34,672 nucleotides of DNA from contig JAUIBQ010000010.1 of the NCBI GenBank assembly GCA_030427445.1, positions 1 to 34,672 on the forward strand, in the 5' to 3' direction. The translations under genes were made by a program, and so were the position numbers. Below are positions 733-34,672 of this stretch, piece after piece. This DNA comes from a bacterium (lineage in GTDB: Bacteria > Patescibacteriota > Saccharimonadia > Saccharimonadales > SZUA-47). The notes beneath the pieces were generated by a model. That model made no database searches. It was not told where the DNA came from and saw only the letters and a program-made list of their open reading frames with translations. The stretch's first letter is position 1. Each line of letters starts with the position of its first letter.

Positions 733-1437
733 CTACTCAGCCCCATCATCGTACTGTAATAATGCTACTGCCGTAATCGCTGCTGTTTCTGCACGAAGTG
801 TGAAATCACTCAGCGAAACAGCTTTGATATCGTTTTCATCAAAGTAAACTTTCTCGTCATCTGTCCAACCACCCTCAGGGCCAATAAGCACAGCTATGTG
901 CTGCGATATATGATAGTTGATATCTGATATTTGAGTAGTTGATTGTTCTGCGACGTATAAATTCACATCGCTCGGAAGGCTTTCTCGTATCAGTTTAAGT
1001 TGCGTTGGGCTTATGATACCTGGCACGTCAGTCCGACCGCACTGCTCTGCTGCCTCGACCACAATCTTCTCTGCTCGCTCATCATTCCAGCCAGTTTTTT
1101 CAGTCCTAGAAGAGATGATTGGCACAAAGTAGCTCACTCCGAGCTCGGTGCCTTTTTGTAGCACCCATTCGTTTTTATCTTTTTTGAGCAGTGAAAAACA
1201 CAAATAAATCTCTCTTTTTGGCTTCATAGCTTTCGTTGGCTTGATTACATCTAATTTAGCTTCACTTTTTGATAACCTTTTAATCTCATAAATTGCGGAA
1301 GATTCTCCGTTAAACAGTTCTACCTCTCTACCGGCGTCAAAACGAAGCACCCTCGTCCACTGGTGTAATACAGCTTTATCTTTAATAACGAGACAGCTGG
1401 AAAGCTCAGTATCAATATAAAATCTATGAAGTTTCAT
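733..1437 (-). CDS. rsmE: 16S rRNA m3U1498 methyltransferase RsmE
   Basis: RsmE methylates N3 of U1498 in 16S rRNA with S-adenosylmethionine and belongs to the SPOUT (trefoil-knot) superfamily. The 234-residue length is normal. The N-terminal PUA-like part begins MKLHRFYID. Visible family motifs are QKGTELGV (about 96-103), EQCGRTDVP, the knot motif LIGPEGGW (about 184-191) and the C-terminal LRAETA. It is third in the Nudix - RlmD-like - RsmE run, 103 nt after the previous stop. A weak GGG lies just before the ATG. An 8-nt inverted repeat (1440-1447 with 1529-1536) ends 2 nt before the ATG and could fold over the ribosome-binding site. The identity is firm; the regulation is inferred. Confidence 0.95.
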   Translation of the reverse strand: MKLHRFYIDTELSSCLVIKDKAVLHQWTRVLRFDAGREVELFNGESSAIYEIKRLSKSEAKLDVIKPTKAMKPKREIYLCFSLLKKDKNEWVLQKGTELGVSYFVPIISSRTEKTGWNDERAEKIVVEAAEQCGRTDVPGIISPTQLKLIRESLPSDVNLYVAEQSTTQISDINYHISQHIAVLIGPEGGWTDDEKVYFDENDIKAVSLSDFTLRAETAAITAVALLQYDDGAE

Positions 1438-1540: not shown

Positions 1541-2863
1541 TCATTTCTTCTCCAATACTATCAGAGATTCGATGTGTGGTGTGCGTGGAAAGAAGTTAAA
1601 TCCTTGTGCATGGACGATTTTGTATTGTTCATGCAGTAAGGCTACGTCACGTGCCTGAGTACTTGGGTTACAACTTAAATAAACTACTTTAGGCGGTAAA
1701 ACTTCAAGAATTTTGTGCACGACGTCTTTATGAAGTCCAGCTCGAGGTGGATCCACTACCAACACATGATCCGATGTTATGTACTCGATAGCATCTTCAC
1801 TCGTCGCGTGCACTAATTTTGTTGAATCGCCAGCATTTTGCTTAGCCATCGCGATATTTGAGCTGTCCGATTCAATTAACATACTGGCTCCCAGGGGCAC
1901 GCCAATCGTACCGACACCACTGTAAAAGTCAGCTACATTATTGCCATCTATATACTTCACAATCGTACTCATCACTTCTTCAAACACGGGAAGGTTTACC
2001 TGAAAAAACGAGTTTACGTCATACATGATATTTTTACCCATCACCTCATCCATGAGAGTTATATCGCCTATGCGATAAAGTTCTTCCGTTATGACACTCG
2101 CTGGACTTTTCGGATCAGAATAATAAATGCTCAAACCCCGTAATTTCACCGCGGTAGTAGTCGAGTCAGCCGTCACTACACGGTTTTCAACACCATTGAG
2201 CATTTTAACTTCTTTCAGTTTCACATCATTTTTCTTTATGAATAATGCAGCTACAACTTCTCCGGCTGATGAGCTTCGGAAAATAACGGTTTTTAGATCT
2301 CCTGCTCTGAGGCTATTTTCTAACACAAAATCATTTATAAATTGCTTGAAATCGTCTAATACTGAGTTAATAGCATCCGAAGCAAGTGCATTTGATGTGA
2401 TGATGCGCTTCCCATGGGTACCACGTATATAGCTGGCAAAGTGAATCCCGTCGTCATCTCCCCAAAAACCGAGCTCTACTTTATTACGATACCCATACTG
2501 TGCTTCTCCTGCATAAAAGTCGGTCCAGCTAATGTCGTTTACGTGTTCTCGCTCAAACGTCTCTTCTAAAATTGCTTGCTTAGCACTATTTTCAGCTTCA
2601 AATGTCATAATCTGCCACGGACTTGAAGAAAGATAAACCTCTTCTTCACGTGGCTCCACCCTGTCCTTAGAAGACTCGTGAACAAGTACTGCAACCCCTT
2701 CAAGATAGCTCGATTTCTTCTTAGTGACTCGTACATCAACTAGTTCACCCGGCAAGCCTCCCCAGACAAACAACTTCTTGCCCTCAGGAGTCTCTGCAAG
2801 ACATTGCCCGCCATGAACCAATTTACCTAATCGGATATTTTCTAGAATAATCTGTTTTTTCAT
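1541..2863 (-). CDS. RlmD/TrmA-family RNA (uracil-C5) methyltransferase
   Basis: This is a SAM-dependent RNA m5U methyltransferase of the TrmA/RlmD/RlmCD family; its target (23S U747/U1939 or tRNA U54) cannot be told from sequence alone. An N-terminal TRAM domain covers about 1-60. The catalytic part has FFQVN (about 287), the SAM-binding DFYSGVGTIGVPL (about 313), VVDPPRAGLH (about 367) and the nucleophile cysteine in LSCNPSTQARD (about 393). At 440 residues it is a normal length. The CxxxxxCxxC iron-sulfur ligand set usually found just after the TRAM domain is absent: the matching stretch reads SSSPWQIM. The ATG overlaps the TGA of the Nudix gene (ATGA), so translation is coupled. Confidence 0.9.
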   Translation of the reverse strand: MKKQIILENIRLGKLVHGGQCLAETPEGKKLFVWGGLPGELVDVRVTKKKSSYLEGVAVLVHESSKDRVEPREEEVYLSSSPWQIMTFEAENSAKQAILEETFEREHVNDISWTDFYAGEAQYGYRNKVELGFWGDDDGIHFASYIRGTHGKRIITSNALASDAINSVLDDFKQFINDFVLENSLRAGDLKTVIFRSSSAGEVVAALFIKKNDVKLKEVKMLNGVENRVVTADSTTTAVKLRGLSIYYSDPKSPASVITEELYRIGDITLMDEVMGKNIMYDVNSFFQVNLPVFEEVMSTIVKYIDGNNVADFYSGVGTIGVPLGASMLIESDSSNIAMAKQNAGDSTKLVHATSEDAIEYITSDHVLVVDPPRAGLHKDVVHKILEVLPPKVVYLSCNPSTQARDVALLHEQYKIVHAQGFNFFPRTPHIESLIVLEKK

Positions 2864-3315: not shown

Positions 3316-3320
3316 AATAA

Positions 3321-3353
3321 TTAAAACTCACGAATTAACTTCGTGAGTTTTAA
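3321..3353 (-). terminator. Hairpin terminator downstream of heliorhodopsin gene
   Basis: This is a perfect 14-bp inverted repeat (3321-3334 with 3340-3353, arm TTAAAACTCACGAA) around a 5-nt loop. The T-rich arm is followed on the minus strand by TTATTTG. A/T runs flank both sides, so it could work in either direction. It lies between the heliorhodopsin gene and the Nudix operon. Confidence 0.7.
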
Positions 3354-3363
3354 TACAATATTG

Positions 3364-3435
3364 GGAGGTGAGCAACCGGAGCAACATGCTTTGCATTTGC
3401 GCCGCGTGATGAGAGGAGGAGTCACCTCCTCTCAT
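3364..3435. other. Structured non-coding stretch after the heliorhodopsin gene
   Basis: Five nt after the heliorhodopsin stop there is an 11-bp perfect hairpin (3409-3419 with 3425-3435, arm ATGAGAGGAGG, loop of 5). An alternative long-range pairing is also possible: GGAGGTGA at 3364-3371 matches TCACCTCC at 3422-3429. The stretch is GC-richer than nearby intergenic DNA. The first hairpin has no T-run, so it is not a simple terminator. It could be a 3'-UTR stabiliser or a small RNA; no known RNA family was recognised. Confidence 0.4.
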
Positions 3436-3440
3436 AGTTC

Positions 3441-4433
3441 TTACGGCCGTAGTGTGCCGGCGAAGATTTGCCACGCAAGTGCTGACTTCGCAACTAGCGA
3501 AAGAATCATATAGACTTTTTCACCATAAAGGTAATCTTGCCATCGGCCTTTACCTCGGTATTGGAGCCACATGTTTACAGCAAAGCTTGAGAAGAACACG
3601 AATATGCTAGCGTAGATCCAGTATACAAATGTCGGGATACCGCCACTTCCGTACTGCTCTGCTCCCCAGAAGTAAATGCCAACTACTACCCACGGCAATA
3701 GACCGGAAATGGTTCCGACGATGTAGCTAATCCAGTTGGTCTTAGAAGTTGTTTGATTGTGAACTTCCATAACGAGACCACAGAGGTTCATAACTGATGT
3801 TGCACCAAAGAGCATTACTAACGTAGACAAGTCACTAACACCTGAAAGCATCGCAATAGCCACCATCATAACGCTGGCGCTGAGGCTATATTCGTACCAT
3901 CGAGCCTTGTTCATACCCTTATCAAGCTGTGTTTCGTATCGTTTACGACCAATCGTAGCAATGTAAAGGTGTGCAAGAGCTGAGAGGAAGAAAAATGCAG
4001 CAACTAAGTACGCTAAGTTAATGTCAAAAAGACTTCTTTGTGCTTCCACTAATACTGGCATTCCTTCGCTTGAAGCAAGCTCATCAGCAGTAACGTAGTT
4101 CGTAGTGACTGGGAAAAGTGAGTCAGACTTGCTTAAGAAGATGATTGCAAACCCTTGAATAGCATGGAGTGCAGCGAGCACCCAGTTCCAAAGATTAAGC
4201 TTGTCTAGCTTCGAATCCTTTGGTGTAGACTTTTTAGATGTCGATGCAGACGTAGTCTTTGAAGCTTTTGTATTTGTCGCTTTTTTAGCAGTGCTCTTCT
4301 TAGAACTTGCTGCTTTTTTCGTTGTTGTCTTTTTAGCTGAACTCGCAGCTGTGGTTTTTTTAGTCGACTTTTTAGCCGATTTCTTGGTTGTGCTAGCTTT
4401 TTTAGCGCTAGCTGCTTTTTTCGTTGTAGCCAT
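3441..4433 (-). CDS. Heliorhodopsin with N-terminal histone-H1-like Lys/Ala/Ser/Thr tail
   Basis: This is a seven-helix retinal protein of the heliorhodopsin family. The Schiff-base lysine is K316 in LSLVAKSALAWQ (helix 7). The counterion is E181 in RWYEYSLSAS (helix 3). H90 and H155 sit where the conserved helix-1 and helix-2 histidines are expected. The E-to-K spacing of 135 matches known members (about 134). Helices start at about residue 81. Before them lies a tail of about 75 residues built of KK separated by A/S/T, with 25 Lys, no Arg, no Glu and two Asp in residues 1-80. Family members are usually near 250 residues; this one has 330. Heliorhodopsins have a cytoplasmic N-terminus, so the tail would face the nucleoid. 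It stands alone, with its own extended -10 upstream and a terminator downstream. No retinal-synthesis gene is in the window. Light sensing is likely; the tail's role is unknown. Confidence 0.9.
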   Translation of the reverse strand: MATTKKAASAKKASTTKKSAKKSTKKTTAASSAKKTTTKKAASSKKSTAKKATNTKASKTTSASTSKKSTPKDSKLDKLNLWNWVLAALHAIQGFAIIFLSKSDSLFPVTTNYVTADELASSEGMPVLVEAQRSLFDINLAYLVAAFFFLSALAHLYIATIGRKRYETQLDKGMNKARWYEYSLSASVMMVAIAMLSGVSDLSTLVMLFGATSVMNLCGLVMEVHNQTTSKTNWISYIVGTISGLLPWVVVGIYFWGAEQYGSGGIPTFVYWIYASIFVFFSSFAVNMWLQYRGKGRWQDYLYGEKVYMILSLVAKSALAWQIFAGTLRP

Positions 4434-4443
4434 AATACTCTAA

Positions 4444-4452
4444 ACTATATCA
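4444..4452 (-). promoter_or_regulatory. Extended -10 of heliorhodopsin gene
   Basis: The minus strand reads TGATATAGT (TGnTATAAT-like), 10 nt before the ATG at 4433. It sits in the 33-nt gap after the vWA pilin gene, so the rhodopsin can be transcribed independently with a leader of only about 4 nt. No Shine-Dalgarno is present. Confidence 0.55.
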
Positions 4453-4466
4453 CACCAGATAATTAC

Positions 4467-5690
4467 TTATATATTAATCTCTTTTTCTAAAATCTGCTGG
4501 AGCAGACTAATGATTTCATCTGGCCCCGCGCTTAGCGTTTGATAGATGAATTTTCGAGGAAGTATCCCATCTCCTTCAGGATCACCGGAATTGTCGTCTA
4601 TACCCTCGTCATAGTCGCCCCCTACTGAAGCGATTGCTGCGGAAACGCGCCGAGTTTGTAGGACACCGTAAGAAGTTGTATTTATGTTATTGTCGTCGTC
4701 GTACACACTAAGCACTGTCCACCCTGAAGTTAGCCCTGAATACCCATCATCGGCAAAAACTGTTCCATCTTTGAGCTGGTTGTATTCACCATAGCCAGAT
4801 AACGCATCCTGTGAATTCCAGTTACTTGGCTCACCACTTGCCTTCTTAAGCGAAGTACAGCAACCACCTGAATTACGCTCACCGTAAGCATCGGTGAATA
4901 ACACAAACTGGACATTACTTGCCCCTGCAAGATCTAGCGCATCTCCAGGTCCATAGACAGAGTCCATGCGCATCTCAGCTAACGATGCTGGTAGGTGGTC
5001 TTGATAGTCTTGTACTGATGGACTGCCTGGACCATATCTCCTGTCCCAAGTTGTAGCTGTGACTGGGTCTTTCGTAAACGGTACTGTCACATCATACTTG
5101 TGAACGTGAGAGGAATCATTCGTACCGTATTGGACAACCGCTACTTCAGCAGTCGGGGCATTATCAAGCACGTATTCAATAGATGCGTCCGCTGTCTCCT
5201 TACTTTGTAGCCATTCAGACTCAGACATCGAGCCTGAGTTATCAATAATAAAAACGAACCTTACACTTTGAGGTGTACCAGACGTATAGGTAATCTTACC
5301 TTGGATTTCTCTCTCTTGCACCAGCCTACCACTCACCCGTTCATATACTCTACCGAAGCCTTGAATATCTTGCTGTGTCTGCGAAGGGTTCGTGTAACCA
5401 CGACTCACAACTTCAAAAGCTACACGATGTGTCGCAGTTTCATATAACGTTGTCTCAGCGGTGCCATTGTATGATTGATCAAGTTCATACTGTTCTTTAG
5501 CAAAGTCCATAGCTGTCACACTCGCTAGCTGTGCTTGTTTAATGTGTTCTTGGAACCGAATCGTAGAATAATTTTGCGAAGCAAGAGTGAGCATAAATAC
5601 CGCAAACACACTAATAAGCGGGAAGAAGCTAAGCACCAAGACCATGATGGCGCCTTGCTGTTTTTTGTTGCTAGACGTTATATATTTCAT
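4467..5690 (-). CDS. Pilin-like/TadG-like membrane-anchored von Willebrand A protein
   Basis: The 407-residue protein has a short basic N-terminus and one hydrophobic helix at about 14-36, as in PilX-like minor pilins and TadG-like proteins. A vWA domain spans about 144-400. Its metal-ion-dependent adhesion site is seen as D150-x-S152-x-S154 (IIDNSGSMS) and D267 in VLFTDAYG. Two adjacent cysteines (277-278) could form a strained disulfide. The start overlaps the stop of the preceding prepilin gene by 1 nt (TAATG), so the three pilin genes are coupled. vWA tips on pili or pilus-associated proteins bind host proteins or surfaces; binding to the host bacterium is inferred. The helix lacks the classic GF(S/T)xxE cleavage site, so processing by prepilin peptidase is uncertain. 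Confidence 0.8.
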   Translation of the reverse strand: MKYITSSNKKQQGAIMVLVLSFFPLISVFAVFMLTLASQNYSTIRFQEHIKQAQLASVTAMDFAKEQYELDQSYNGTAETTLYETATHRVAFEVVSRGYTNPSQTQQDIQGFGRVYERVSGRLVQEREIQGKITYTSGTPQSVRFVFIIDNSGSMSESEWLQSKETADASIEYVLDNAPTAEVAVVQYGTNDSSHVHKYDVTVPFTKDPVTATTWDRRYGPGSPSVQDYQDHLPASLAEMRMDSVYGPGDALDLAGASNVQFVLFTDAYGERNSGGCCTSLKKASGEPSNWNSQDALSGYGEYNQLKDGTVFADDGYSGLTSGWTVLSVYDDDNNINTTSYGVLQTRRVSAAIASVGGDYDEGIDDNSGDPEGDGILPRKFIYQTLSAGPDEIISLLQQILEKEINI

Positions 5691-6496
5691 TAGTTAATCT
5701 TCCTAATCGTGTGGGTCACTGTAGCCTCTATATCCTTGCCATAAATCTTATCTCCGAGTGTTAAGGTGACTTCAATCTTCTCCGCATCTGACGGAGTAGT
5801 AATGACGACGTTACCCTCCGCAAAGTACGTGATATCCATACTTATGACGTTCTCTGTCATTACAGCGTCTGGACGACACCCGTTAGACTCAGCAACGCTA
5901 ACTGGGCACGTGCTCTCTTTCGCATTTCCTCGACAATCGCCAGTGACAGGAGTACAAGGATCACCATCTGAATCGATGCTGCACAAATCGTACTCAGGAG
6001 TCACCGTTCTACGATAGAGCGTGTAGTACGCATCATCTGGATTTTTATCTAAGAAATATATCTCGTTGTTGATGGCTAGTGGGTTTGACGTGATTGGCGA
6101 AGTTTCACAGTTATTAACTCTCTCACGGACAATGTGCCGAGTATCATCTCGTCTTGTTGAATCAATCGCTATCTCGTTGATAACAAGGATAGCCGGGTCT
6201 TGGTCATACTGCCAACCACCTGTTGGCGCATAGGCATCTGTCAACCGATTCTCAACTTCTTCACCATAGGCAATCGTGAATAACAATTCGTCTTGTAAGT
6301 TAAGTAGTGTGTACTGTCCTTCCGCACGTAACCTCACACGAGAAGACTCGATTAACCCTGATGCAAACTGGTCAGTAAAGATACTAAACATCAGAACGCT
6401 AAACATCGATATAAGCACGAGTGTAACCATTAACTCGGTTAGTGAAAATCCTTTTTGAAGCTGTCCTTTATATTTCTTATAGTACTCTGCAATCAT
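5690..6496 (-). CDS. Type IV minor pilin (PilW-like prepilin)
   Basis: The 268-residue prepilin has a class III signal: a leader of 16 residues ending KG, cleavage predicted between G16 and F17, then FSLTELMV with the conserved glutamate at mature position 5 and a hydrophobic helix to about residue 40. The globular part has several cysteines (in NNCETSP, LCSIDSDGD, CTPVTGDC, STCPVS and GCRPD), so a disulfide-rich loop is likely. It is in an operon with a prepilin upstream (1 nt gap) and the vWA gene downstream (1 nt overlap). Its role is inferred as an initiating or tip minor pilin. The assembly ATPases, PilC and the prepilin peptidase are not in the window. The identity as a prepilin is firm; the PilW assignment is by general resemblance. 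Confidence 0.85.
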   Translation of the reverse strand: MIAEYYKKYKGQLQKGFSLTELMVTLVLISMFSVLMFSIFTDQFASGLIESSRVRLRAEGQYTLLNLQDELLFTIAYGEEVENRLTDAYAPTGGWQYDQDPAILVINEIAIDSTRRDDTRHIVRERVNNCETSPITSNPLAINNEIYFLDKNPDDAYYTLYRRTVTPEYDLCSIDSDGDPCTPVTGDCRGNAKESTCPVSVAESNGCRPDAVMTENVISMDITYFAEGNVVITTPSDAEKIEVTLTLGDKIYGKDIEATVTHTIRKIN

Positions 6497-6497
6497 A

Positions 6498-8006
6498 CTA
6501 ATCCCCTACTCCATAACGGCGCATCAGTGTTGAATACATCACTCGCTCTCTCGTACCCAACGAGTCGTACTCAAGTATTGAAGTGACCCTTAGCAAGTTT
6601 GGATTATCGACATCTCCGTCTCCATCAGCATCGACATATTCACCAGTCACCTCTTCAATAGACTCTTCCCATTCGATAACAAGCTGAGGTGATGGTGTAC
6701 GATATGCACGACGCTCACCACTTCCTGTAATGTGAGTAATTCCAAATCCCATATCGTTGCCACTACTCCACCCGGTGCGCTGCACAATCTCCTGGACAAT
6801 GCTGGTTACATCTACTCGAGTGTCACTACCATTCTCACCACTACTCCATGCGTTTGGGTACCAATCAGTAGCGCTACTTGTGCCGACGTAGCCGTCCGAA
6901 GAGTTATTGTCTATAGCATTATCCACCGCGAAGGTACCGACCCACTCAGGTGCTGTATCCGCATCAACTCCACGCACCCTCAACCCAACGTAGCCGCTTT
7001 CATTGGCTCTCGAAACAAAGTTTATGTATGCATTCGTAACAGTCGCATCTTGAGGTAAATCTATCTCATCAAACTTAATGCCGACACTCTGTTCTCCTGC
7101 ACTTCCTCCATCGGTTAGATCGATTGTGGAGTCTGAGTAATCAAGCGCTCCTGGGCTACTCACACCCGAGCTTCTTTGCTCTACGATGTCGCCTGGTATG
7201 TCTGCGGCTAATGCCTCTAGCTCAGATATAACTGTATAGTTATTATTATTTGAATCGTACACATATATTCTCCAGTGTTGATAGTCGGTAGAGTTAAAGC
7301 TGACATCAATATCTTGAGGATTATCTGAACCGCTACAAGATATTGAGTCCGCAGATAAACCGTTCACTATCGTATTCCATCCTGAGCTGCTCGTAGGAGA
7401 TCCATTTTTAGCCTGCACAGCAAAACTATCACCTGCATACGAGCAATACCACCAGCTAACTCGAATAGTTTCTACATCACGTGGGCTTCCTAGGTCTATC
7501 GATGGCGATGCGACGTTGTCATCATCTGCGATGTATGTATAGTAGCTGTTATAATTTCCATCACCTATCCGATAGTGATAATTCCAATTTCTTGTCTCGT
7601 CAGTACCGACGTTTTCAATCACTCCACCGCTAGAATAGCTAGAATCCGCACTAACGGCTTCAACATATTCATTTGTCGTGATAATAGGTGCAGGCACAAC
7701 ACTTGCCGGCTCAATATACACCCTACCTTCAGCATTTGGTAAATCTATAGCTTCTGCATCTGCATCATAGTTCTCGACTTCATATGCAGTTGCTGAGTCA
7801 CCGACTGGAACACCTTCAAACGGCAAGTTGATGTAGTCTTGGATTTTTTGAAATGTGAGTGCTTCAGCAACTGAACGCTGGGATGCTCGAGCATTAGTAA
7901 TCATAAGAATCTGCAAAGACGTTGCCATAATACTGATCACTATCGTACCCAGAACGATTGCAACTAACACTTCAGCAATCGTAAACCCTTTTTGCACTTG
8001 TTTCAT
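6498..8006 (-). CDS. Large type IV prepilin with F5/8C-like and DNRLRE-like adhesive domains
   Basis: The class III signal is clear: MKQVQKG then F8, with TIAEVLV and glutamate at mature position 5. At 502 residues it is about three times a normal pilin. After the helix come a Ser/Asn/Asp-rich region, a beta-sandwich at about 140-270 with features of discoidin (F5/8 type C) folds (Trp-rich core, SIDLGSPRDVETIRVSWWY), and a region at about 280-450 resembling DNRLRE/carbohydrate-binding modules (ATVTNAYINFVSRANESG, then RTPSPQLVIEW). A DADGDGDVDNPN stretch near 460 resembles a calcium-binding loop. It is the first gene of the pilin operon, with a good promoter 8 nt before the ATG. Sugar or surface binding by a pilus tip is inferred. 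The domain names rest on pattern recall and need a profile search. Confidence 0.8.
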   Translation of the reverse strand: MKQVQKGFTIAEVLVAIVLGTIVISIMATSLQILMITNARASQRSVAEALTFQKIQDYINLPFEGVPVGDSATAYEVENYDADAEAIDLPNAEGRVYIEPASVVPAPIITTNEYVEAVSADSSYSSGGVIENVGTDETRNWNYHYRIGDGNYNSYYTYIADDDNVASPSIDLGSPRDVETIRVSWWYCSYAGDSFAVQAKNGSPTSSSGWNTIVNGLSADSISCSGSDNPQDIDVSFNSTDYQHWRIYVYDSNNNNYTVISELEALAADIPGDIVEQRSSGVSSPGALDYSDSTIDLTDGGSAGEQSVGIKFDEIDLPQDATVTNAYINFVSRANESGYVGLRVRGVDADTAPEWVGTFAVDNAIDNNSSDGYVGTSSATDWYPNAWSSGENGSDTRVDVTSIVQEIVQRTGWSSGNDMGFGITHITGSGERRAYRTPSPQLVIEWEESIEEVTGEYVDADGDGDVDNPNLLRVTSILEYDSLGTRERVMYSTLMRRYGVGD

Positions 8007-19103: not shown

Positions 19104-20162
19104 ATGAACATCGCAGATTACTCACAAGAACTTGAAACACTGAAAGCTAAGCTTGATGATCCTTCGTATTTCAGCACAAAAGAATATCCGAAAACCGCGA
19201 AGCGCATAGCTCACCTAGAAGACATCACCTCAACGTATGAAAACATCGAAAAAGCCAGGAAGGATATAGATGAAGCCAAAGAGATGATTAGTGCTGGTGG
19301 CGAACTTGCAGAGCTGGCAGAGCTAGAGCTTGAAGAGAAAACTGAGTATCTCACCAACTTGGAGGAAAAACTCCAAGAACTTTTGATACCAAAAGACCCG
19401 AACAACGATAAAGACTGCATCTTCGAAATCCGTGCTGGTGCCGGTGGAGACGAAGCAGCGCTATTTGCAGGCGACTTATACAGAATGTACGTGCGCTATG
19501 CTGAAACAAAGGAGTATAAAGTAGAGCTTCTTGGCACTTCCACTTCTGACAACGGCGGATATAAAGAAATCACATTTAGTGTGGGCGGTGGCAAAGAAGA
19601 TGGTGCATATGGCACCTTCAAGCTCGAAGCTGGCGTACACCGCGTGCAACGCGTACCAGAAACAGAAAGCCAAGGACGAATCCACACATCTACTGCGACT
19701 GTAGCAGTGCTCCCTGAGGCTGAAGAAACAGATATAGAGATCAATCAAAACGATCTCCAGATAGACACATATCGCTCTAGTGGTAATGGTGGACAATCCG
19801 TCAACACAACAGACTCTGCAGTGAGAATAACCCATAAGCCAACAGGTATCGTAGTGACGATGCAAGATGAAAAATCACAAATTAAAAACCGTGAGAAAGC
19901 GATGGGCGTTCTCCGCTCTCGCCTGCTCCAGGCAAAAATTGATGAAGAGCAAGCTGCAGCATCTGCTCAGCGTAAGAAACTTATCGGCTCAGGTGACCGC
20001 TCAGAAAAGATTCGTACCTATAATTATCCTCAAGACCGCATCACTGACCACCGCATCGGCTATTCACGTAGTAACATCCCAGTCGCGATGACCGGCGACA
20101 TTCAAGACATCTTCGACGAACTTAAAAAAGCCGAAGCCGACCTCCTCCGCGACGAGAGCTAA
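19104..20162 (+). CDS. prfA: Peptide chain release factor 1
   Basis: RF1 reads UAA and UAG and releases the peptide. The frame can be read from a TTG at 19089, but the ATG at 19104 ([10 protein letters not shown]) is preferred because TACACT lies 6 nt before it and it gives the usual N-terminus and 352 residues. The catalytic GGQ is at 219-221 in [16 protein letters not shown]. The codon-reading PxT motif is present as PET in [13 protein letters not shown], which marks RF1 rather than RF2. Its TAA overlaps by 4 nt the end of the opposite-strand 1060-residue gene. prmC, which methylates the GGQ glutamine, is usually next but lies 4 kb away here. Confidence 0.97.
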
Positions 20163-23100
20163 CGCACAACAACTAAAGAATGAAGTTCTGGAGGAATTCG
20201 CTTGCGAAGATCTTCAGCTTCATCTGCGGAGAATACGACAATTTCTTGAGCCATGGAGAAGTCGACACCACCTCTAATTTGAGCCTCTACATAGTCGCTT
20301 GTTTTTGTCCCTCCAAGACCCTTTTTATCTTTTGCTCGTCTTAATACCATAGCGTCTTCTCTTGTTAATAATGTTGCCGCCCTAAAGCTATCTTCAGGTG
20401 TGAAAGTGACGTTTTCTTCATCTATTTTACTTGTGTCAAGCACAATTACAGCCTTTCCATACCCTTGCGCACCTTTTTTGGTCCCTTCGTTGCCTAAGAA
20501 AATACAAGTACCATATACAGGATGCTCATCTGAATGATCCATGGACCGTAGTCCCATAGCTATTTCGACACCACTTCTACGATATAGATATCCTTGGTTG
20601 CCTATATGTAGTTTCTTGCCGCTACCGAAAAATACTTCACGGTCGAATAAGCTTTTTATGTCTCCACCTTCTTCTATTATCTTGGAAATGATGTCGTGGT
20701 CTGCATTGATTATTACCCGTAAATCATCTTGAGAGTCATATGCTTCTGCGGCTACTTCCTCGATCTCTTCTGGAGTCATAGCTAGTCGCTGAGTTAGATA
20801 ATCAAAAAGCGCTTTTTTGCTAACAAGCTCTCTGTTTTCTGGCCTGTGAACCCATTCAAAAATAGCATCTGGATTATTTTCTACACCGTCAGCTATAGCA
20901 TTTTCTCTTGCTGATAAGATTGATGGGAGAGTAGCGTATGGAGTATTACCTGTATTAAACCACAACAAGATACTAGCTAGTTCAGTCGAATCCATACGCA
21001 GAAGAGTGCTCTTGTACATCTCTATCACGGAAGTAATAGACTCATAAGGAAACCCATCCTTATCAGTCATGGTAGTAGCACGTTCTAGTAGACTGAACAG
21101 TACTTCTTCGTTTCTTTCTCGCACTTCAGTCCTTCCTTCAGGAAAAGATTTTCTGAACTCTACTATATCGTCTAGCAAAATCGGATAGGGATTCCAGTTT
21201 TTATTTCCAAATTTTTCCCAACTATTATAAAGTTTCTCTGCTTCTTCTAAGCTGCCTAGTTCAACCATCGCTGATAATACCAAGTCATCGCTTACTATTG
21301 AACTTTCAATAAAACTTATATAATTTTCATCAGCTCGAAGCTGCTTAAGAAAATCTGAACCTACGATTTCTTTCAGAGTAGCTAATTGCTGCTCATCATG
21401 TCTGATCGCGAAACCTAATATTTGTTTTAATTCAAGCGTGCCATTTTCTATTTCCGTCCTTAGGCTTTCTACTTTGTTAAAAAAAGTTTCGATACCTTCT
21501 AATCCAGCAAAGCCAGACAACTCAGGTGGTGATTCAAAATAAACTCGTTCTATATAATCTTGAATCCGTATGTAACTATCATCAATAGCTACGTTTTCCT
21601 TACGAAAGACTCGTGCTCTTAATTCAGGAAATGTTTGTAGATATTTAGCTGTTTTGATGTTTGCTTGTAACCCGTGGACACCACCAAACCCAGTGGTCCT
21701 TGCCATCTCACACGCCCATGTAGCTAATTCAGGGTCATTTTCTTCTAATTCTGTAATCTCACTAGATATAGTGATCAGAGTACCTATTTGACTTTCTACA
21801 TCTTCATATTTTCCAGACACGTGAATTAAATCATACAGAATCCTCCTGCCTGTCTCTTTATCAACCGAGAAAATTCCAGTTAGTTTATCTCCTATCTTTT
21901 CTGCTATTTCCAAGGCACGAAACTCTGCTGCAAATGGCTGAGCCGGATCACGATTATAATTAGTCGTGTCTTGAGGATTCAATCTACCCAACAACAACTC
22001 TGTTAGATGTTCTACGGGAAATCCTGCTTCTTTGACTTTATCCATTAAGGGGTTCAGTGCTCTAATGTAATCGCCATATTCTTCTGGTTGTATCTGTATC
22101 TCCTGTAGAGCTATGTCACGTAAATCCTTTTGATTGAACTGATATATTTCTTCATTATCTTGATAGAACAAATCGGTTTGAGCGAGCAAGGTAACAATTT
22201 CAAAAATTTCAGGATTTTCATCGTGATACATCTCATCAAGTAACTTAAGCCGTCTACTATCACTGATAAAGCTCAAAATTTTATCAGTTGTTAATCCGGC
22301 TCCTTCTAGAGCTTCAGAAATAGCCCCAAATTCCTCTATTGTTAGTTCTGCTTTATAGCCTGTAGCACCAGTAATCTCTCCAAGTCGAGTTACCGCTTTT
22401 TTCTGCTCTTCCTTATCGTCATCAGGCGGGATAAACCTATCCAATAATTCAATATTGCTAAATAATTCTGCTCTGTTTTCTGTATTATTTGTAACGATTA
22501 ATTTAGTTATATGTTTTACAGAGTTAAATCGTTTACTTACATCAACAACTTCTTCAGGTGTCGGTTCTTGCTTTTTTTCTACCGGAGATTCTTCGCTCCA
22601 TGAATACCTCTTTTCGCCGTAAATTTTGTCATAATCTGATAATTCTTTGTAGCTCGTACTACGCGATGTTTGCGGATATGTTTGCATTAAATCTACAACT
22701 CTCGAACCATTATCAGAGACCTCTTCCTGTACGGAGTCAGTCAATGCATCGTATAATTCTCTTATCGACTGTCTTTCTTCAAGCAGCTCAGGAGGCTCTG
22801 GACCCTTTTCATTAAAAGGATCACTTATATGTAATGAATTCAATACACCGCTGCAGCATTCTCGGAAAGCGGAGCGTGTCCATACGTCCATAGTACCTTG
22901 ATCTAGTTTTGCTTTTACATCGTCTTTTATGCGCGGGAAATGTTCTCTCACTAATACCCAAAGATCGTTACTGGATGAATAATCTTCACTATGTTTTGCA
23001 ACAAATGTCGTAATTTCATCTAATATTTGCTGAGGGTCATCACCGGATTGATATGTTTCTATAAGCCCTTTGATACTAGAGACACTTCTACTCGCTTCTG

Positions 23101-23341
23101 TTGCACTCTCAGGGATTTCGGGAGTAGGCATCTCTTGCGGAAGTAAGTCAGTAAAAATATCCTCTTCTATTCCTACTTGTTGACCCGTTGTATTGTAGAC
23201 ATGCTCCACCTCTACACCTACAACATGTGCGATACCGTCAATACCTTGCTGTGGAGTAGGATGAGTTAGGGTGTCATGACCGTCACGTACGATTGCCGGG
23301 TCGTCATCCAATACGCTTTTCTGTGCTGGAAAATTATTCAT
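20159..23341 (-). CDS. 1060-residue orphan helical protein with possible ADP-ribosyltransferase-like C-terminus
   Basis: This very long soluble protein has no signal peptide or membrane helix. Residues about 1-850 are acidic and mostly helical, possibly a helical solenoid, with no family I recognise. The last about 170 residues differ: HPVYG, then [19 protein letters not shown] and [14 protein letters not shown] occur in the order I recall from DUF3626-like and phage or toxin ADP-ribosyltransferase-like domains. That link rests on memory of motif order and is weak. It lies with the gene at 23512 between prfA and prmC on the opposite strand. It has its own promoter (TTGCAA, 17 nt, TACAAT) overlapped by the palindrome ATGTTGCAACAT. 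It could be an effector or toxin-like protein; function is unproven. Confidence 0.8.
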
Positions 23342-26146: not shown

Positions 26147-26911
26147 CTACCCTTGCGTTGGAATTGACCACTTAGACACAAATATCAAAAACAGCACACC
26201 TACTGTCATTAATCCAATAAATTGCCAACGTAACGTGTCTTTAAGTCTGTCAGTGTGGTCCAAGTAATAAATCGCAGCTATGCCATACCCAAGAAGACTG
26301 AGGAATATCGCTGGCATTGCGATATATCCACCATACATGATTAACCGATGCGAGGTAATCCAGACGGTAGCTCCTGCAAAAAATGCCCATGTATAAGCTG
26401 TGGCTCGGCTCATCTGCTCGTCGAACGCAGAAAGGAAGTGTCGTGCAGACAGATACGCCACACCCCATACTGCGAACATGAGCCATAATGTTGAAGCTCC
26501 TGTCCACTGAATAAAGATGGCGATAATCGCGAGCGTCTGACCAAGCAACGCTTGTATGCCGATCCAGACGGATCCACTGCGAGGTTTTATGAGCAGTAAC
26601 CAAACCGCATACATTACAACCCAAAATATTCGAGACGAAACAGAGGCTACAGGTATACTCATCAACGAAATTATAGAAAGCCCAACAAAGATATCTACTG
26701 CATTTGCTCGAAACAATGCCAGCCAATGACGAGACTTAACTGAAAAGATACGCCATTTGCTAATTAGTACTAATACAACTGCTATCCACGCGAAGTCCAA
26801 GCTTACTGCGATATATACAAGTACCGGCAAAAGCAGGAGCAACAGATAGTGGAGAGCTTTTGAAAAGAAACCCCTGTCAGGGCGTTTAATTGGACGTCTG
26901 AGAAATTTCAT
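26147..26911 (-). CDS. Polytopic membrane protein, unknown function
   Basis: The 254-residue protein (start ATG at 26911, MKFLRRPIKR; a TTG start at 26920 is possible) has a basic N-terminus and about eight hydrophobic helices covering most of the chain. No transporter or enzyme motif is recognised. The gene overlaps the 3' end of the LCP gene by 26 nt and ends 8 nt before the htrA ATG, so it lies within an LCP - membrane protein - htrA operon. A role in envelope assembly or quality control is inferred only from these neighbours. Confidence 0.8.
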   Translation of the reverse strand: MKFLRRPIKRPDRGFFSKALHYLLLLLLPVLVYIAVSLDFAWIAVVLVLISKWRIFSVKSRHWLALFRANAVDIFVGLSIISLMSIPVASVSSRIFWVVMYAVWLLLIKPRSGSVWIGIQALLGQTLAIIAIFIQWTGASTLWLMFAVWGVAYLSARHFLSAFDEQMSRATAYTWAFFAGATVWITSHRLIMYGGYIAMPAIFLSLLGYGIAAIYYLDHTDRLKDTLRWQFIGLMTVGVLFLIFVSKWSIPTQG

Positions 26912-28571
26912 CTGTACCAAGTATTATAACAAAGTCAGCCTCTTCACTCCCAGGTAAGCCTTCCCTACCGGTCGTCGTCGTGGTTAGCCCTAGCCTCTTC
27001 TCAAGATAACTTTCTGTATACGGTTTTGCACCGTTAGTATTGTCGATAATCGTGTTATTTACATAGTCACTCGTCGGTGCATTATCCACCTTTATCACGT
27101 TGTATCCGTATGACTCGAGCTCTTCTTCAGTTCGCGATGCGAGACCCGGAGTGTTGGTACCGTTGAGGATAATTATCCTTGCATTTTCATCAGCTAGGAA
27201 TGAGTCTTTCAATTTATTTCTAATAAAAGAATGGATCTCACTGTAGTCGGTGAGTCCAGCCGTTGGTGCTTGAATGGCCTGCCCTGGTACAGCTCCGCTA
27301 CTACCGATAAGTACGTTTGGTTGCTCAACCAAACTAATTGATTGGATCTTATCAGCAGATATGCCACCACCGATTTCGTACAACCTTTTTATTTCACTGA
27401 GGCCATTTAGGTCAGTGCTGACGTTGTTCCCTAGCGTGTTGAGCAATTCCACAACCTTCAGCGGATTTGAGAACGTGCCAGCAGAAAGGACCTTTTGTTG
27501 AAGCGCGATAATTACTTCTTTTTGTCGCTCACTTCGTGCAAAGTCTGAACCACCAGTACCTTTACGTGAACGTGCGTAAAATAAAGCCCGCTTACCATCG
27601 AACGTCTGGAGTCCTTTTTCTGCGATAACTGGGTTACCGCCCAACTCCCATGCGACTGTATAGTCAATAAGTGGTTCCTCTACGTCAATCGTAATACCGC
27701 CAACCGTGTCTACGGCTTCTTCAAATGCCTTGAAGTCAACCATCACATGGTAGTGCACTGGTACACCTAACACCTCAGAAACTGCTTCTTTAAGTGCATT
27801 CACGCCGTCACGCTCAGCTGCTGCTATGTCAGACTCTGTGCCAGAGCCTTGAGCGAGTCGTGCTTGCTTTGCAGTTGAATACACAGCATTGATGCGGTAG
27901 TTTGACTGGCCTTCTTGATACAAGTCACGTGGGACACTTACCATAGCTGCCTCTTGTTTTATGGGATCGATACTCGCAAGTAAGATTGTGTCAGTGAGGT
28001 CAGGTGCTTCATGACCTTCACCACCTTTTCCAATCAAAAGTATATTTACCCGTCCATCACCTTCGCCATTCAATAAGCTAGGGTCGACATTTTCATCAAG
28101 CGCTGCTGCACCTGTGCCATCACCATTAAATATTCCTCGAGTTTTGATGTAGGTATACGCAGCTAAGCTCCCAAAACCAATTAAGCCAATAAGCAGAAAA
28201 GCTGCAAAGGCTTTTCTGAGTTTTTTAACAGAGACTTTTTTACCTTTAGCTCTCGACTTGTGGGAGGATTTATTTCGTCTGTGGAGTTTACTTACTTTTT
28301 TGTCGGTGTTTTGACCTGAAAATGAATCTATTTCAGATGAGAAACTACCTTTTAGAGGTTTTTTTCTCGTATCTTCTTGTATAGACCTGTCGTTAAAAGT
28401 AGTAACGTCTCTTCTCCTTGTAAAACCAGTCTCGCTATCTACTTTCCTGTTTTGCCCTGGTTTGTAGCTGTTCTGAAACTGCTTTTTAGAGAAATTATTA
28501 CTATCACCACTCAATAAACCATCGACTGACTTGCGAGAACGTGAATTGTCTTTTGGGTTTCTAAATTTCAT
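26886..28571 (-). CDS. LytR-CpsA-Psr (LCP) family protein with LytR_C domain
   Basis: LCP enzymes transfer undecaprenyl-linked glycopolymers to peptidoglycan outside the membrane. The protein (561 residues from the ATG at 28571; a TTG at 28580 also opens the frame) has a long basic Ser/Lys/Arg-rich cytoplasmic tail of about 120 residues, one membrane helix (about 121-142), an LCP core (about 170-390) with RVNILLIGKGGEG, DTILLASID, VSVPRDLY and the arginine-rich LFYARSRKGTGGSDFARSER, and a C-terminal LytR_C domain (IIILNGTNTPGLASRTEEEL). The promoter TATAAT lies 15 nt before the ATG, so the leader is short. It links with UppS function: both use the C55 carrier. Confidence 0.94.
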   Translation of the reverse strand: MKFRNPKDNSRSRKSVDGLLSGDSNNFSKKQFQNSYKPGQNRKVDSETGFTRRRDVTTFNDRSIQEDTRKKPLKGSFSSEIDSFSGQNTDKKVSKLHRRNKSSHKSRAKGKKVSVKKLRKAFAAFLLIGLIGFGSLAAYTYIKTRGIFNGDGTGAAALDENVDPSLLNGEGDGRVNILLIGKGGEGHEAPDLTDTILLASIDPIKQEAAMVSVPRDLYQEGQSNYRINAVYSTAKQARLAQGSGTESDIAAAERDGVNALKEAVSEVLGVPVHYHVMVDFKAFEEAVDTVGGITIDVEEPLIDYTVAWELGGNPVIAEKGLQTFDGKRALFYARSRKGTGGSDFARSERQKEVIIALQQKVLSAGTFSNPLKVVELLNTLGNNVSTDLNGLSEIKRLYEIGGGISADKIQSISLVEQPNVLIGSSGAVPGQAIQAPTAGLTDYSEIHSFIRNKLKDSFLADENARIIILNGTNTPGLASRTEEELESYGYNVIKVDNAPTSDYVNNTIIDNTNGAKPYTESYLEKRLGLTTTTTGREGLPGSEEADFVIILGTDEISQTSN

Positions 28572-28586
28572 ATTGAACAATGATTA

Positions 28587-29285: not shown

Positions 29286-30164
29286 TTAATCTCTATCTAG
29301 TTTATTTAGTATATCTTTTAAAGTATTCTCGTTTTCTACGGTAATCAGCAACTGCGACTTCGATGCATTAAACGATAGTTGTGTGGCGAGCTTCTTAGAA
29401 ACGCCAGCTAAACTTTGCTTTGTGTCTTTGGATATAGTAAAAGGCGCTTTGTGAGCTGCGGGAGTAAGTTTTTCGGTTTTTACAGCTTTTATGTTCTTAG
29501 CTGCCTGCTCTGCTTCACGCACAGAGAGGTTATGAGTAATAATTGTGTTCAACAGTATATCCTGTTGCTCTACATCTGTTAAACTGAGTAGCGCTCTCGC
29601 GTGACCTTCTGTGATTTCATTGTTCATTAGTGCTTCTTTAGCCCTTTTTGTTAACTGAAGGAGCCTCATCGTATTGCTTATTGTCGTGCTAGCTTTACCT
29701 AATTTTTTTGCGATTTCTTGCAATGATAAGCTAAACTCATGCTTCAGTTTATAAATCGACATCGCTTCTTCAAGTGGCGTGAGATCTACTCTTTGAACAT
29801 TTTCAATAATGGCAATTTCAAGTTTTTGCTGCTCTTTGGTGTCTCTGACAATAGCAGGAACCGTCTTCAGTCCTGCTAACTTGGATGCTCGCCAACGACG
29901 CTCTCCAGCAATTATCTCGTGCTTACCGCTGCCCTTCCTAGCGCCGACAATTAATGGCTGGATGACGCCGTGCTCAGCAATAGATTGAGACAATTCTTTT
30001 AACGCTTCAGAGTCGAATGTTTTTCTGGGTTGAGATTCATTAGGGTAAATCTTTGATACATCAAGTTGCTGTACCTTCTCTCCTGGTGACGCAACAGCCC
30101 CAACATCAAAGCCTGTTGGCAGCAAGCCTTCCATACCCTTCCCTAGTGCTGACTTTTTAGACAT
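29286..30164 (-). CDS. parB: Chromosome partitioning protein ParB
   Basis: ParB is a CTP-dependent clamp that loads at parS sites and works with ParA. The N-terminal ALGKGMEGLLP motif is the usual ParA-contact segment. The ParB/sulfiredoxin-like CTPase part has PNESQPRKTFD (about 41-51), HGVIQPLIV and IAGERRWRASKLAGL (about 85-99). A helix-turn-helix (about 145-170, LSLQEIAKKLGKASTTISNT) and a C-terminal dimerisation segment follow. The 292-residue length is normal. Its start overlaps parA by 8 nt. I found no sequence matching the parS consensus in this window. Confidence 0.96.
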   Translation of the reverse strand: MSKKSALGKGMEGLLPTGFDVGAVASPGEKVQQLDVSKIYPNESQPRKTFDSEALKELSQSIAEHGVIQPLIVGARKGSGKHEIIAGERRWRASKLAGLKTVPAIVRDTKEQQKLEIAIIENVQRVDLTPLEEAMSIYKLKHEFSLSLQEIAKKLGKASTTISNTMRLLQLTKRAKEALMNNEITEGHARALLSLTDVEQQDILLNTIITHNLSVREAEQAAKNIKAVKTEKLTPAAHKAPFTISKDTKQSLAGVSKKLATQLSFNASKSQLLITVENENTLKDILNKLDRD

Positions 30165-31528: not shown

Positions 31529-34500
31529 TTATCTAACTTGAATTCGTATTGCTGATAATCCGACTATCTCCGTGCCATCTCCCCCTTCGCAAACAACACG
31601 TAATTGAACTTCTTCATTATCTTTGGCGGCTTGAGGAACCAACTCCCACTCCGACTTCAGGGTTATTGCATCGTCAATCGAAAGCGCTTGAGTAAGGTAC
31701 TGCCACTGACTATCACTTGCCACCTGATATTGTACTCGACATACACTACCGGTAATTCCTTCATCACTAACCGACAGAACGACTCGCAGTTCTTTTATCC
31801 TTCTTAAATCTAGCCAAGTTCGCGCGCTTCCAGGTATCTCTTGACCTTCAAGAGGCAACTGCCAATCAGAAATATTGTTTGCGATAACATATTCACTCAA
31901 TACAGATGATATACAGTCTACCCATTCACCATTTTCATGGCAGCGGAATTTTTGTAGATATTCGTTGTAATACTGAGCACCATTTACCCCGATAGGGTCT
32001 TCTTTAGTATTTTGACGTGCCAATACGAACAGTACTGCTGATGGATCTGGTTGTGCGCTACCAATCTGAACTACCCCACCGTTGGTATTTACGCTGAAGA
32101 GATCGATACCGTTTCTGTCTTGAATCTCAAATGCCTTGTCGGAGTTCACCCGAAGTCCAAGTGACCCATCACCAGAAATTTCTAATGCATTTTGCTCATT
32201 GTATTCAACTTTAAGCACACTATCTAGTGCGTTTTGTGATGATAACGAAACTTGCTGTGCTTCTACTGTATACGCTCCAAGTACATTACCGACTGATCGG
32301 ATGCCGCTAAAGTTGTTATCAATACCGCCAGCAAGCAATGTAATTCCATTTATATTTACCAACTCACCTTCTCTTGTAAGACGAATTATTCCGTCTGTCG
32401 CAACACTTTCTACATTGATATCCGTGAACTGCTGAGGGAATTCAAGGCCATCAGCAGGAATACTATAACTTGCTTCCGCCACATAATACGTAAGCCCGAC
32501 AAACACATCTATCAAACCATCTTCGCTCGCGTCTTCCATCGCAACTCCAAGCACTGTTCCAGTCTGAGTAGCCTTCACTGCTCGCCCACCGGGACCACTT
32601 GTAAGGTAATCGCCCTTCTCGATTGAACCATTCGCTACACTCACTTTCGTTGGTAAGCGACCCTTCAATCCCACTGGCACACCGTCGACACCTGCATCGA
32701 GAATAATCGCAGCCTTCGTAGACACAACTCCAGCTAGACCCTTTTGATATTGCTGACTTGATTTAGCAACCGTGCGATTATCTGTGAAGTACACGACGTC
32801 ACCAGGTTTTGCGCCATCGCTGTTTTTGTAGTTCTCAGCGATATCAGCACCATTAGATATGTTATTTGTGCCATCAGAGAACACGTCGCCGTCACTGTCG
32901 ACTCTAAACACCACATTACCGACCGAACCAACATCGCTTCTAAGAGCAAGAATATCTACATCTGAAGTTGCACTTGCGTTGTAGCCCTCTATTACATTGT
33001 CGCTATAAGACAGTGGACCAAGTTCTGTAATGGTAATAGTATCGAGACCAAAGTCATTATGCCAGTTAGTACCTGAAGCTGGCATAGTGACAACAAATCG
33101 TATTTGCGTAGAAGGATCACTCACCACGCCACCACTAAGGTTTAATTGTTCGAAGTTCCATACCTGGGTAGCAGCTGTAGGCTGATCGCCTCCACCATAG
33201 GTACCGCGCGTTACCCAGCCAGCTCCGGCTTCATTTGTCTGCACTGTTAGTACTGCCGTATTATCATCTCCACGTTGGTTCCAGTAGAAGTCAATCGCGA
33301 TACCATTTGTAGCATCAAATGTTGAATTATTTGTCATGGTGAACACATCACCAAAAGCACCAGGTGTAGACGCCTCAGTAAACACATACCCATCTGGGTT
33401 ACCACCCTGCCCTGAAGTCGGACCGACATCAGTTGATGCAGTCAGATTAGTATCATGATTCCAATAACCATTGTTACTTGGCGCTTGAAGTCCGGCACCT
33501 GTAGGACTATTGAATGTCCAAGCAGATTCATCGGCATCATTATCCGCATCAAAAGTATAAGGACCAGTTGATGTCCCTGGTAGCTGTGCAGCACCAGTCG
33601 TAATTGCACCTTCGAAATAAGCAGTAGATGACACGATGCCATTAGTACCAGCAACATTAAGTACTGTACCGACATCAAGACTGTTCGCCGTTGTCACAGC
33701 CCCATTGAGATTCACTGCACCAGTTCCAGTGCTGAATGTACCTGTTCCAGCAATAGAGAAATTACCGCCTGTTTGATCATATCCAGTGATGCCACTGAGA
33801 GAACCGCTATTCACTATGAGTCCATTAATAGTGTCTCCTGAGTTCGCTGCCGTAATAGTGCCGCTATTTATAACAATCCCGTTAATCGTATCTCCAGCAG
33901 TAGCAGCACTGATTGTTCCGGCATTATTGATACCAACTGAACTAAGATTTAGTGCACCGCTTGTGACGGTGAACCCATTACTAAATGTGCCGACACCACT
34001 TGCATCAAATTCTAGTGCATTGTTACCGCCACTCATTATTCGTAAGCCAAATGCATCAGTCGTACCCAATATACCTGTAGCGCCGAAGCTATTTCCATTC
34101 TGTTCGAATGATGTACCGCCACCGCCACCGCCGCCACCGCCGCCAGAGACTGCATTCGTATCAAGTACGGTAAAGTGCCAGACTCTATCAGCTGCCACAT
34201 CGTTACCTGTGCCGTTGTCTCCAGTAACGATAGACACATTAAACGCACTATTGCTTTGTGCACTCAAGACTATATTAATATCATTATAAGTTGCGCTATC
34301 TGCTAGCGAGAGGAGCACCGTATAATCTGCGTCAGTTGTAGGTGTATCAAACGTAACAGTATATTGACCTGTGCTGTTTCGTACCACTGAAGCGCCATCT
34401 ATGTTAAACGGCGTACCGTTCCCTGCCACCTTACCGAATGCCAGAACACCTTCCAGTAGAGGCTGACCGCCACCTGTTAGCGAGACCCAATCTGTGCCAT

Positions 34501-34672
34501 CGAAGCCTTCGAAGTCTGCGCCGGTCCAGCGAATTGCACCTGCAGTCGAGCTTACGAAGTTTCCTAACACAGCTCCACCTGTGAATGTTTGAGTGTCGGT
34601 AAATACTTGCGCCGTATCCAACAGCGCAACATTTGACGATAGCCTGAGATCATCTAGTGTGCCTGTGGTTAT
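31529..34672 (-). CDS. C-terminal part of a very large surface adhesin/tail-fibre-like protein (5' end outside window)
   Basis: The frame is open to the right edge (1047 residues seen), so the N-terminus is missing; the TTG near 34621 is not a start. The chain is rich in Thr, Ser, Gly and Asn with few charges. It has fibre-like short beta repeats (AGTISAATAGDTINGIVINS, then TITAANSGDTINGLIVNS), a run of ten glycines (near 34115-34143), a jelly-roll-like part (about 360-550), a DIAENYKNSDGAKPGDVVYF domain like those near the ends of phage tail fibres, and a closing Cys-containing domain (FRCHENGEWVDCI). It is probably a cell-surface or secreted attachment protein. The next gene (coiled coil, parAB) has its own promoter. 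Exact family unknown. Confidence 0.85.
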   Translation of the reverse strand: MTTGTLDDLRLSSNVALLDTAQVFTDTQTFTGGAVLGNFVSSTAGAIRWTGADFEGFDGTDWVSLTGGGQPLLEGVLAFGKVAGNGTPFNIDGASVVRNSTGQYTVTFDTPTTDADYTVLLSLADSATYNDINIVLSAQSNSAFNVSIVTGDNGTGNDVAADRVWHFTVLDTNAVSGGGGGGGGGGTSFEQNGNSFGATGILGTTDAFGLRIMSGGNNALEFDASGVGTFSNGFTVTSGALNLSSVGINNAGTISAATAGDTINGIVINSGTITAANSGDTINGLIVNSGSLSGITGYDQTGGNFSIAGTGTFSTGTGAVNLNGAVTTANSLDVGTVLNVAGTNGIVSSTAYFEGAITTGAAQLPGTSTGPYTFDADNDADESAWTFNSPTGAGLQAPSNNGYWNHDTNLTASTDVGPTSGQGGNPDGYVFTEASTPGAFGDVFTMTNNSTFDATNGIAIDFYWNQRGDDNTAVLTVQTNEAGAGWVTRGTYGGGDQPTAATQVWNFEQLNLSGGVVSDPSTQIRFVVTMPASGTNWHNDFGLDTITITELGPLSYSDNVIEGYNASATSDVDILALRSDVGSVGNVVFRVDSDGDVFSDGTNNISNGADIAENYKNSDGAKPGDVVYFTDNRTVAKSSQQYQKGLAGVVSTKAAIILDAGVDGVPVGLKGRLPTKVSVANGSIEKGDYLTSGPGGRAVKATQTGTVLGVAMEDASEDGLIDVFVGLTYYVAEASYSIPADGLEFPQQFTDINVESVATDGIIRLTREGELVNINGITLLAGGIDNNFSGIRSVGNVLGAYTVEAQQVSLSSQNALDSVLKVEYNEQNALEISGDGSLGLRVNSDKAFEIQDRNGIDLFSVNTNGGVVQIGSAQPDPSAVLFVLARQNTKEDPIGVNGAQYYNEYLQKFRCHENGEWVDCISSVLSEYVIANNISDWQLPLEGQEIPGSARTWLDLRRIKELRVVLSVSDEGITGSVCRVQYQVASDSQWQYLTQALSIDDAITLKSEWELVPQAAKDNEEVQLRVVCEGGDGTEIVGLSAIRIQVR
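34111..34143. repeat. CCG/CCA trinucleotide tract coding for a poly-glycine linker
   Basis: A run of CCG and CCA triplets (GGC/GGT on the coding strand) encodes ten consecutive glycines inside the adhesin. Gain or loss of triplets would change linker length without breaking the frame. Confidence 0.7.

Follow-up and report, generated by a model that had tools for sequence, protein, structure and literature searches.

The gene at 3441-4433 (minus strand) of the window, by which we mean the whole 34,672-nucleotide stretch of DNA that was analyzed, encodes a heliorhodopsin with a long, lysine-rich N-terminal tail. The best explanation, to which we assign a probability of roughly 60%, is that the tail constitutively tethers the protein to a polyanion in the cytoplasm by electrostatic attraction and that light sensing is optional. 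Judged from sequence and gene order, the gene belongs to a vertically inherited Saccharimonadales heliorhodopsin lineage at one conserved locus, and this lineage is more interesting than the single gene.

The open reading frame specifies 330 amino acids from an ATG. PF18761 covers residues 79-328 over the full profile (1-242/242, E = 1.6e-92), NF038020 matches at 1.4e-93, and the best solved relative is TaHeR (6IS6, 1.1e-73). In the seven-helix core (3441-4205, minus strand), alignment placed the retinal lysine K316 within SLVAK (residues 312-316), with S312 to K316 over the canonical SxxxK of helix 7, and E181 over the helix 3 counterion of canonical heliorhodopsins; H90 and H155 are both present. 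AlphaFold modeled the core confidently as a seven-transmembrane protein, the ten top-ranked Foldseek matches to this model were all heliorhodopsins, and the TM score against the 6IS6 crystal structure was 0.95 by target length. The first-pass annotation had named K316, E181, H90 and H155 as marks of a complete core and suggested a family profile search; that search, with its match over the whole core, and the alignment both bear it out, and by sequence the protein is a complete, retinal-competent-looking heliorhodopsin. The retinal-synthesis profile BCD (PF15461) found no match anywhere, controls included. Heliorhodopsins have an inverted topology, with the N-terminus in the cytoplasm. The basic N-terminus here agrees with the positive-inside rule, and the tail would be cytoplasmic if the known heliorhodopsin topology holds.

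The tail is encoded at 4206-4433 (minus strand). Its 76 residues, rich in Lys, Ala, Ser and Thr, include 24 Lys, one Asp and neither Arg nor Glu, giving a charge of about +23, and pLDDT was below 50 across nearly all of residues 1-69. An earlier description of about 75 Lys-rich residues without Arg or Glu is thus accurate, and the 25th Lys from the N-terminus is residue 78, beyond the tail. The likeness to histone H1 that had been drawn also stands, in that the tail has the Lys/Ala-rich, nearly acid-free repeat composition of H1-like nucleoid proteins. To call the tail "fused", however, is too strong, since its length varies among relatives and no separate domain is joined. A Pfam scan of the protein returned no family besides PF18761, and no linker-histone or HU profile. 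The tail lacks both Cys and the YEGEW motif, and neither MORN repeats nor a zinc ribbon precede the core. When the tail was used as a query against its whole own genome, no other gene matched, and a tail profile run against 61 genomes matched heliorhodopsin-family genes only, a search in which composition bias limits sensitivity; we therefore rejected the idea of a module common to other proteins. PADLOC returned no defence match.

We next consider whether the tail is translated. No in-frame ATG, GTG or TTG separates the tail ATG from the core, and the nearest GTG is residue 85, within helix 1. An extended -10 box (TGATATAGT, 4444-4452, minus strand) lies 10 nt ahead of the tail ATG. Of 26 tailed genes, 21 have the extended -10 TGNTANNNT placed 5-11 nt ahead of an ATG, which in every case is the one that opens the tail and never a later Met; the same box at this spacing is found at 130 of 7491 background ATGs (1.7%). 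Given a transcription start about 7 nt past the -10 hexamer, the mRNA would be leaderless or nearly leaderless, and the tail ATG is then probably its first codon. The missing alternative starts, the family conservation described below and the promoter position together provide strong indirect evidence that the tail is translated, and on these grounds we rejected a late start codon. The antisense frame at 4201-4443 (plus strand) is a Phe/Leu-rich mirror of the Lys codons and is without support. A hairpin resembling an intrinsic terminator (15 pairs, weak T tail) lies 3' of the gene at 3320-3354 (minus strand). Just past the stop codon, at 3409-3435, we also noted a perfect 11-bp inverted repeat, ATGAGAGGAGGTGACTCCTCCTCTCAT on the minus strand, with no T run.

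Within the window's GTDB family, all five other K-bearing homologues at the locus carry the tail (62-74 aa). All six K-bearing family genes there, the window's included, start with MATT, and their tails span 62-76 residues. The family alignment that the first-pass annotation had called for thus finds the Lys-rich tail conserved in the K-bearing locus genes; a start near residue 75 in close relatives, which it had raised as evidence against the tail, was seen in none of the family's genes at the locus. Among seven aligned family tails, 135 of 238 aligned Lys pairs combine AAA with AAG, whereas Lys/Glu pairs number zero, and there is no GAA or GAG codon against 147 Lys codons. AAA to GAA is a single transition, of the same kind as AAA to AAG. 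The ratio of Lys to Glu is 160:1 in eight family tails and 73:45 in their cores (composition was compared with 183 ORFs from the window plus nine neighbourhoods). With synonymous AAA/AAG change near saturation and Lys/Glu change at zero, the codon patterns indicate that selection for lysine and against acidic residues keeps the charge while the tail sequence turns over. A functionless, neutral expansion of low-complexity sequence would fit the limited alignable sequence, the variable length and the repeated gain or loss of tails, but the same codon contrast argues against it, as do the lack of a tandem DNA repeat and the conserved MATT start and promoter, and we consider it very improbable. 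A tandem-repeat artefact was likewise ruled out, there being a single 1.9-copy match and mixed Lys, Ala, Ser and Thr codons.

The locus has a conserved order in Saccharimonadales, rsmE-rlmD-[heliorhodopsin]-msrA/lysS/pilins. One flank holds an RsmE and/or RlmD/TrmA-like methyltransferase. The opposite flank carries MsrA, a DUF427 protein or lysyl-tRNA synthetase; in the window's family, pilin genes take that place. The downstream markers in the window are an RsmE-type 16S rRNA methyltransferase (733-1437, minus strand) and a TRAM/TrmA-type RNA uracil methyltransferase (RlmD/TrmA-like; 1541-2863, minus strand). The upstream neighbour, at 4467-5690 (minus strand), is pilin-like with a weak von Willebrand A match and holds the same place in family relatives; it belongs to a run of three consecutive pilin-like genes (4467-8006) kept beside the heliorhodopsin in the family. 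MsrA often adjoins the locus heliorhodopsin in other families (L039-L053, L184-L193, L062:6685-7167), which fits an oxidative-stress idea, and is not beside the heliorhodopsin in the window. A ParB gene lies at 29286-30164, about 25 kb from the heliorhodopsin, and the locus may lie near a partition site.

Across 122 heliorhodopsin-family rows, tails were present in 26 of 50 at the locus versus 0 of 72 elsewhere; a single branch (SH-aLRT 96) separates the 72 non-locus rows from the others, so that the contrast is essentially one between two lineages and not 122 independent cases. Untailed heliorhodopsins have N-termini of 3-9 residues. Other families of the order have divergent PF18761 proteins at the locus with similar tails of 40-82 residues, and all nine divergent proteins tested exceeded the Pfam cut-off for PF18761 (1e-12 to 1e-50). 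Some members of locus families f4, f7 and f8 have short N-termini only. In sister orders of the class the heliorhodopsins are short-tailed and K-bearing, and the locus genes were absent from the flanks examined around them. A single clade or origin for all tails was rejected (p-AU 7e-5; our AU tests used a reduced 61-row set and a simpler model). By this phylogeny, tails arose or were lost several times; given this result, the variable tail length and the short N-termini of some members, the tail cannot be strictly necessary.

The retinal lysine is often missing at this locus. In 19 of 50 locus members another residue occupies the K316 position, the replacements including V, I, L, A, S, E and W, Q twice and R five times, and the helix 7 alignments are free of gaps for L026, L028, L180 and L181. 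In L039, L041, L047, L049 and L188 an Arg sits exactly at the Schiff-base lysine, which keeps the charge and makes a retinal Schiff base impossible there. The Lys-less members remain PF18761 matches, and tailed ones have V, I, R, Q or A at this position; away from the locus we found no complete sequence without the retinal lysine. Two cases fall in the window's own family, where the tailed positional equivalents have V for K in G007 (L026/L059) and I for K in G002 (L033/L061). G002 has a second heliorhodopsin at another locus, which is untailed and K-bearing. A clade of all eight family sequences, those of G007 and G002 included, was not rejected (p-AU 0.73, same reduced set), a result in keeping with proteins that lost the lysine and retained the tail. 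The Lys-less cores are long branches, however, which makes their exact relation to the window gene uncertain, and the core may instead have been replaced at the locus. Since Lys-less equivalents by gene order keep the same tail, the job of the tail probably does not depend on light.

These data bear on the first-pass proposal of a light sensor that the tail fastens to the nucleoid, through which light would alter gene activity or the position of DNA. In its favour, the window member has the full set of retinal-site residues and an H1-like tail composition, and its genome encodes a photolyase-family protein (PF00875; G000 contig C33:49901-50365, L200); another heliorhodopsin, in another bacterium, binds and enhances a photolyase (PMC9769723), a precedent for such a model. 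The coupling of tail to light is nevertheless unsupported, because there are tailed equivalents at the locus with no retinal lysine, two of which come from the window's own GTDB family, and because K-bearing, retinal-competent heliorhodopsins at other loci are tailed in 0 of 72. What the tail tracks is the lineage at the locus, as opposed to the retinal site, and we therefore regard the light-to-DNA model as improbable.

What the tail contacts is a separate matter. In the tether reading, a membrane protein with N-in topology would trail a disordered polycation into the cytoplasm, where the polycation would serve as a constitutive tether to a polyanion, with nucleic acid as the likeliest one; the light-sensing core would be an optional module, given that several locus relatives without the retinal lysine have the tail, and light would at most modulate the action of the tail. 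Variable tail length and the short N-termini of some locus members count against a tether. The odds lean slightly towards nucleic acid, be it DNA or ribosomal or other RNA, as the partner, and anionic lipid is a distinctly less probable one. Lys-rich tails bind lipid and ribosomes too. In favour of nucleic acid, the window tail is H1-like in composition, and the AKKA-repeat tail of mycobacterial HbhA has been reported to be necessary and sufficient for DNA binding (PMC10665949).

An electrostatic membrane anchor, in which the tail would lie along inner-leaflet anionic lipid, fixing the topology or clustering the protein, is a doubtful alternative. The LytR-CpsA-Psr protein at 26886-28580, another membrane protein of the window and a possible comparison for basic tails that bind lipid, has a strongly basic stretch before its membrane helix, and some locus members manage with short basic N-termini. 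Polybasic segments beside membrane helices commonly serve in this way. Against an anchor, 62-82 residues far exceeds what topology needs, untailed heliorhodopsins have N-termini of 3-9 residues, and the large hydrophobic residues that usually aid lipid insertion are nearly absent from the tail. Docking on ribosomes or RNA, with the tail binding rRNA like the basic tails of YidC-type membrane proteins, draws on the translation genes that are its conserved neighbours (RsmE, RlmD/TrmA-like, SerS and LysS) and on the precedent of YidC tails, for which contacts with ribosomes or ribosomal proteins are described (PMC8595059). Proximity of genes in a compact genome is weak evidence, though, and the heliorhodopsin gene comes with a promoter and a terminator-like hairpin of its own; as a specific account, ribosome docking seems unlikely to us.

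Returning to the polyanion tether, we noted that HU (PF00216) was found in 0 of 61 Saccharimonadales genomes and that this HU/IHF family was found in 18 of 21 genomes from other orders of the class (search controls, 9 of 14 positive), a single phylogenetic contrast and so a weak link between HU loss and the tail. One might go further and suppose that, in an order that seems to have lost HU, the tailed heliorhodopsin serves as a membrane tether for the nucleoid or RNA, with light ancestral and dispensable, and that in several lineages the lysine was replaced, often by Arg, leaving a retinal-free scaffold that kept its tail. We put this forward tentatively, as a scenario that we ourselves doubt.

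The function of heliorhodopsins is a standing question. A selected tail, kept while the retinal lysine is often missing, suggests that the important contact may be cytoplasmic and need not involve light. The lineage allows a clean comparison among tailed proteins with K, tailed proteins without K and untailed proteins with K. It also supplies a candidate membrane tether for DNA or RNA in an order in which HU went undetected. Elsewhere in the window, two long minus-strand ORFs, at 20159-23341 (1060 aa) and 31529-34621 (1030 aa), have no Pfam match.

In the open-licence literature neither the Lys tail nor the conserved locus nor any Lys-less member was found to be described, and the main text of a genetics paper on Saccharibacteria does not mention rhodopsin. 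Chiriac et al. 2022 (PMC9166423), who studied the same group of organisms, report many Saccharimonadia heliorhodopsins and new clades, with SLVAK, SLIAK and SFVAK as the commonest motifs; their main text describes no tail, conserved locus or loss of the retinal lysine. The lysine tails of histone H1, HupB and HbhA share with the window tail AKK/AKKA-like repeats, a near absence of acidic residues and disorder; the window tail differs in sitting on a seven-transmembrane protein. With the heliorhodopsins TaHeR (6IS6) and 48C12 (6SU3) the window protein has in common the seven-transmembrane core, the Glu counterion, SxxxK and the extracellular beta hairpin, and it adds the 76-residue polycationic N-terminal tail, whereas the N-termini of ordinary members are short. 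Bulzu et al. 2021 (PMC8612252) describe MORN-HeR, Znf-HeR and the N-terminal extension classes ntv1-ntv10, in a set that retained SxxxK proteins only; as far as that account goes, one of ntv2-ntv10 may be the present tail. MORN-HeR and Znf-HeR resemble the window protein in having extra cytoplasmic N-terminal sequence on a heliorhodopsin, but the window tail, in contrast, is a disordered Lys/Ala/Ser/Thr polycation with no folded domain.
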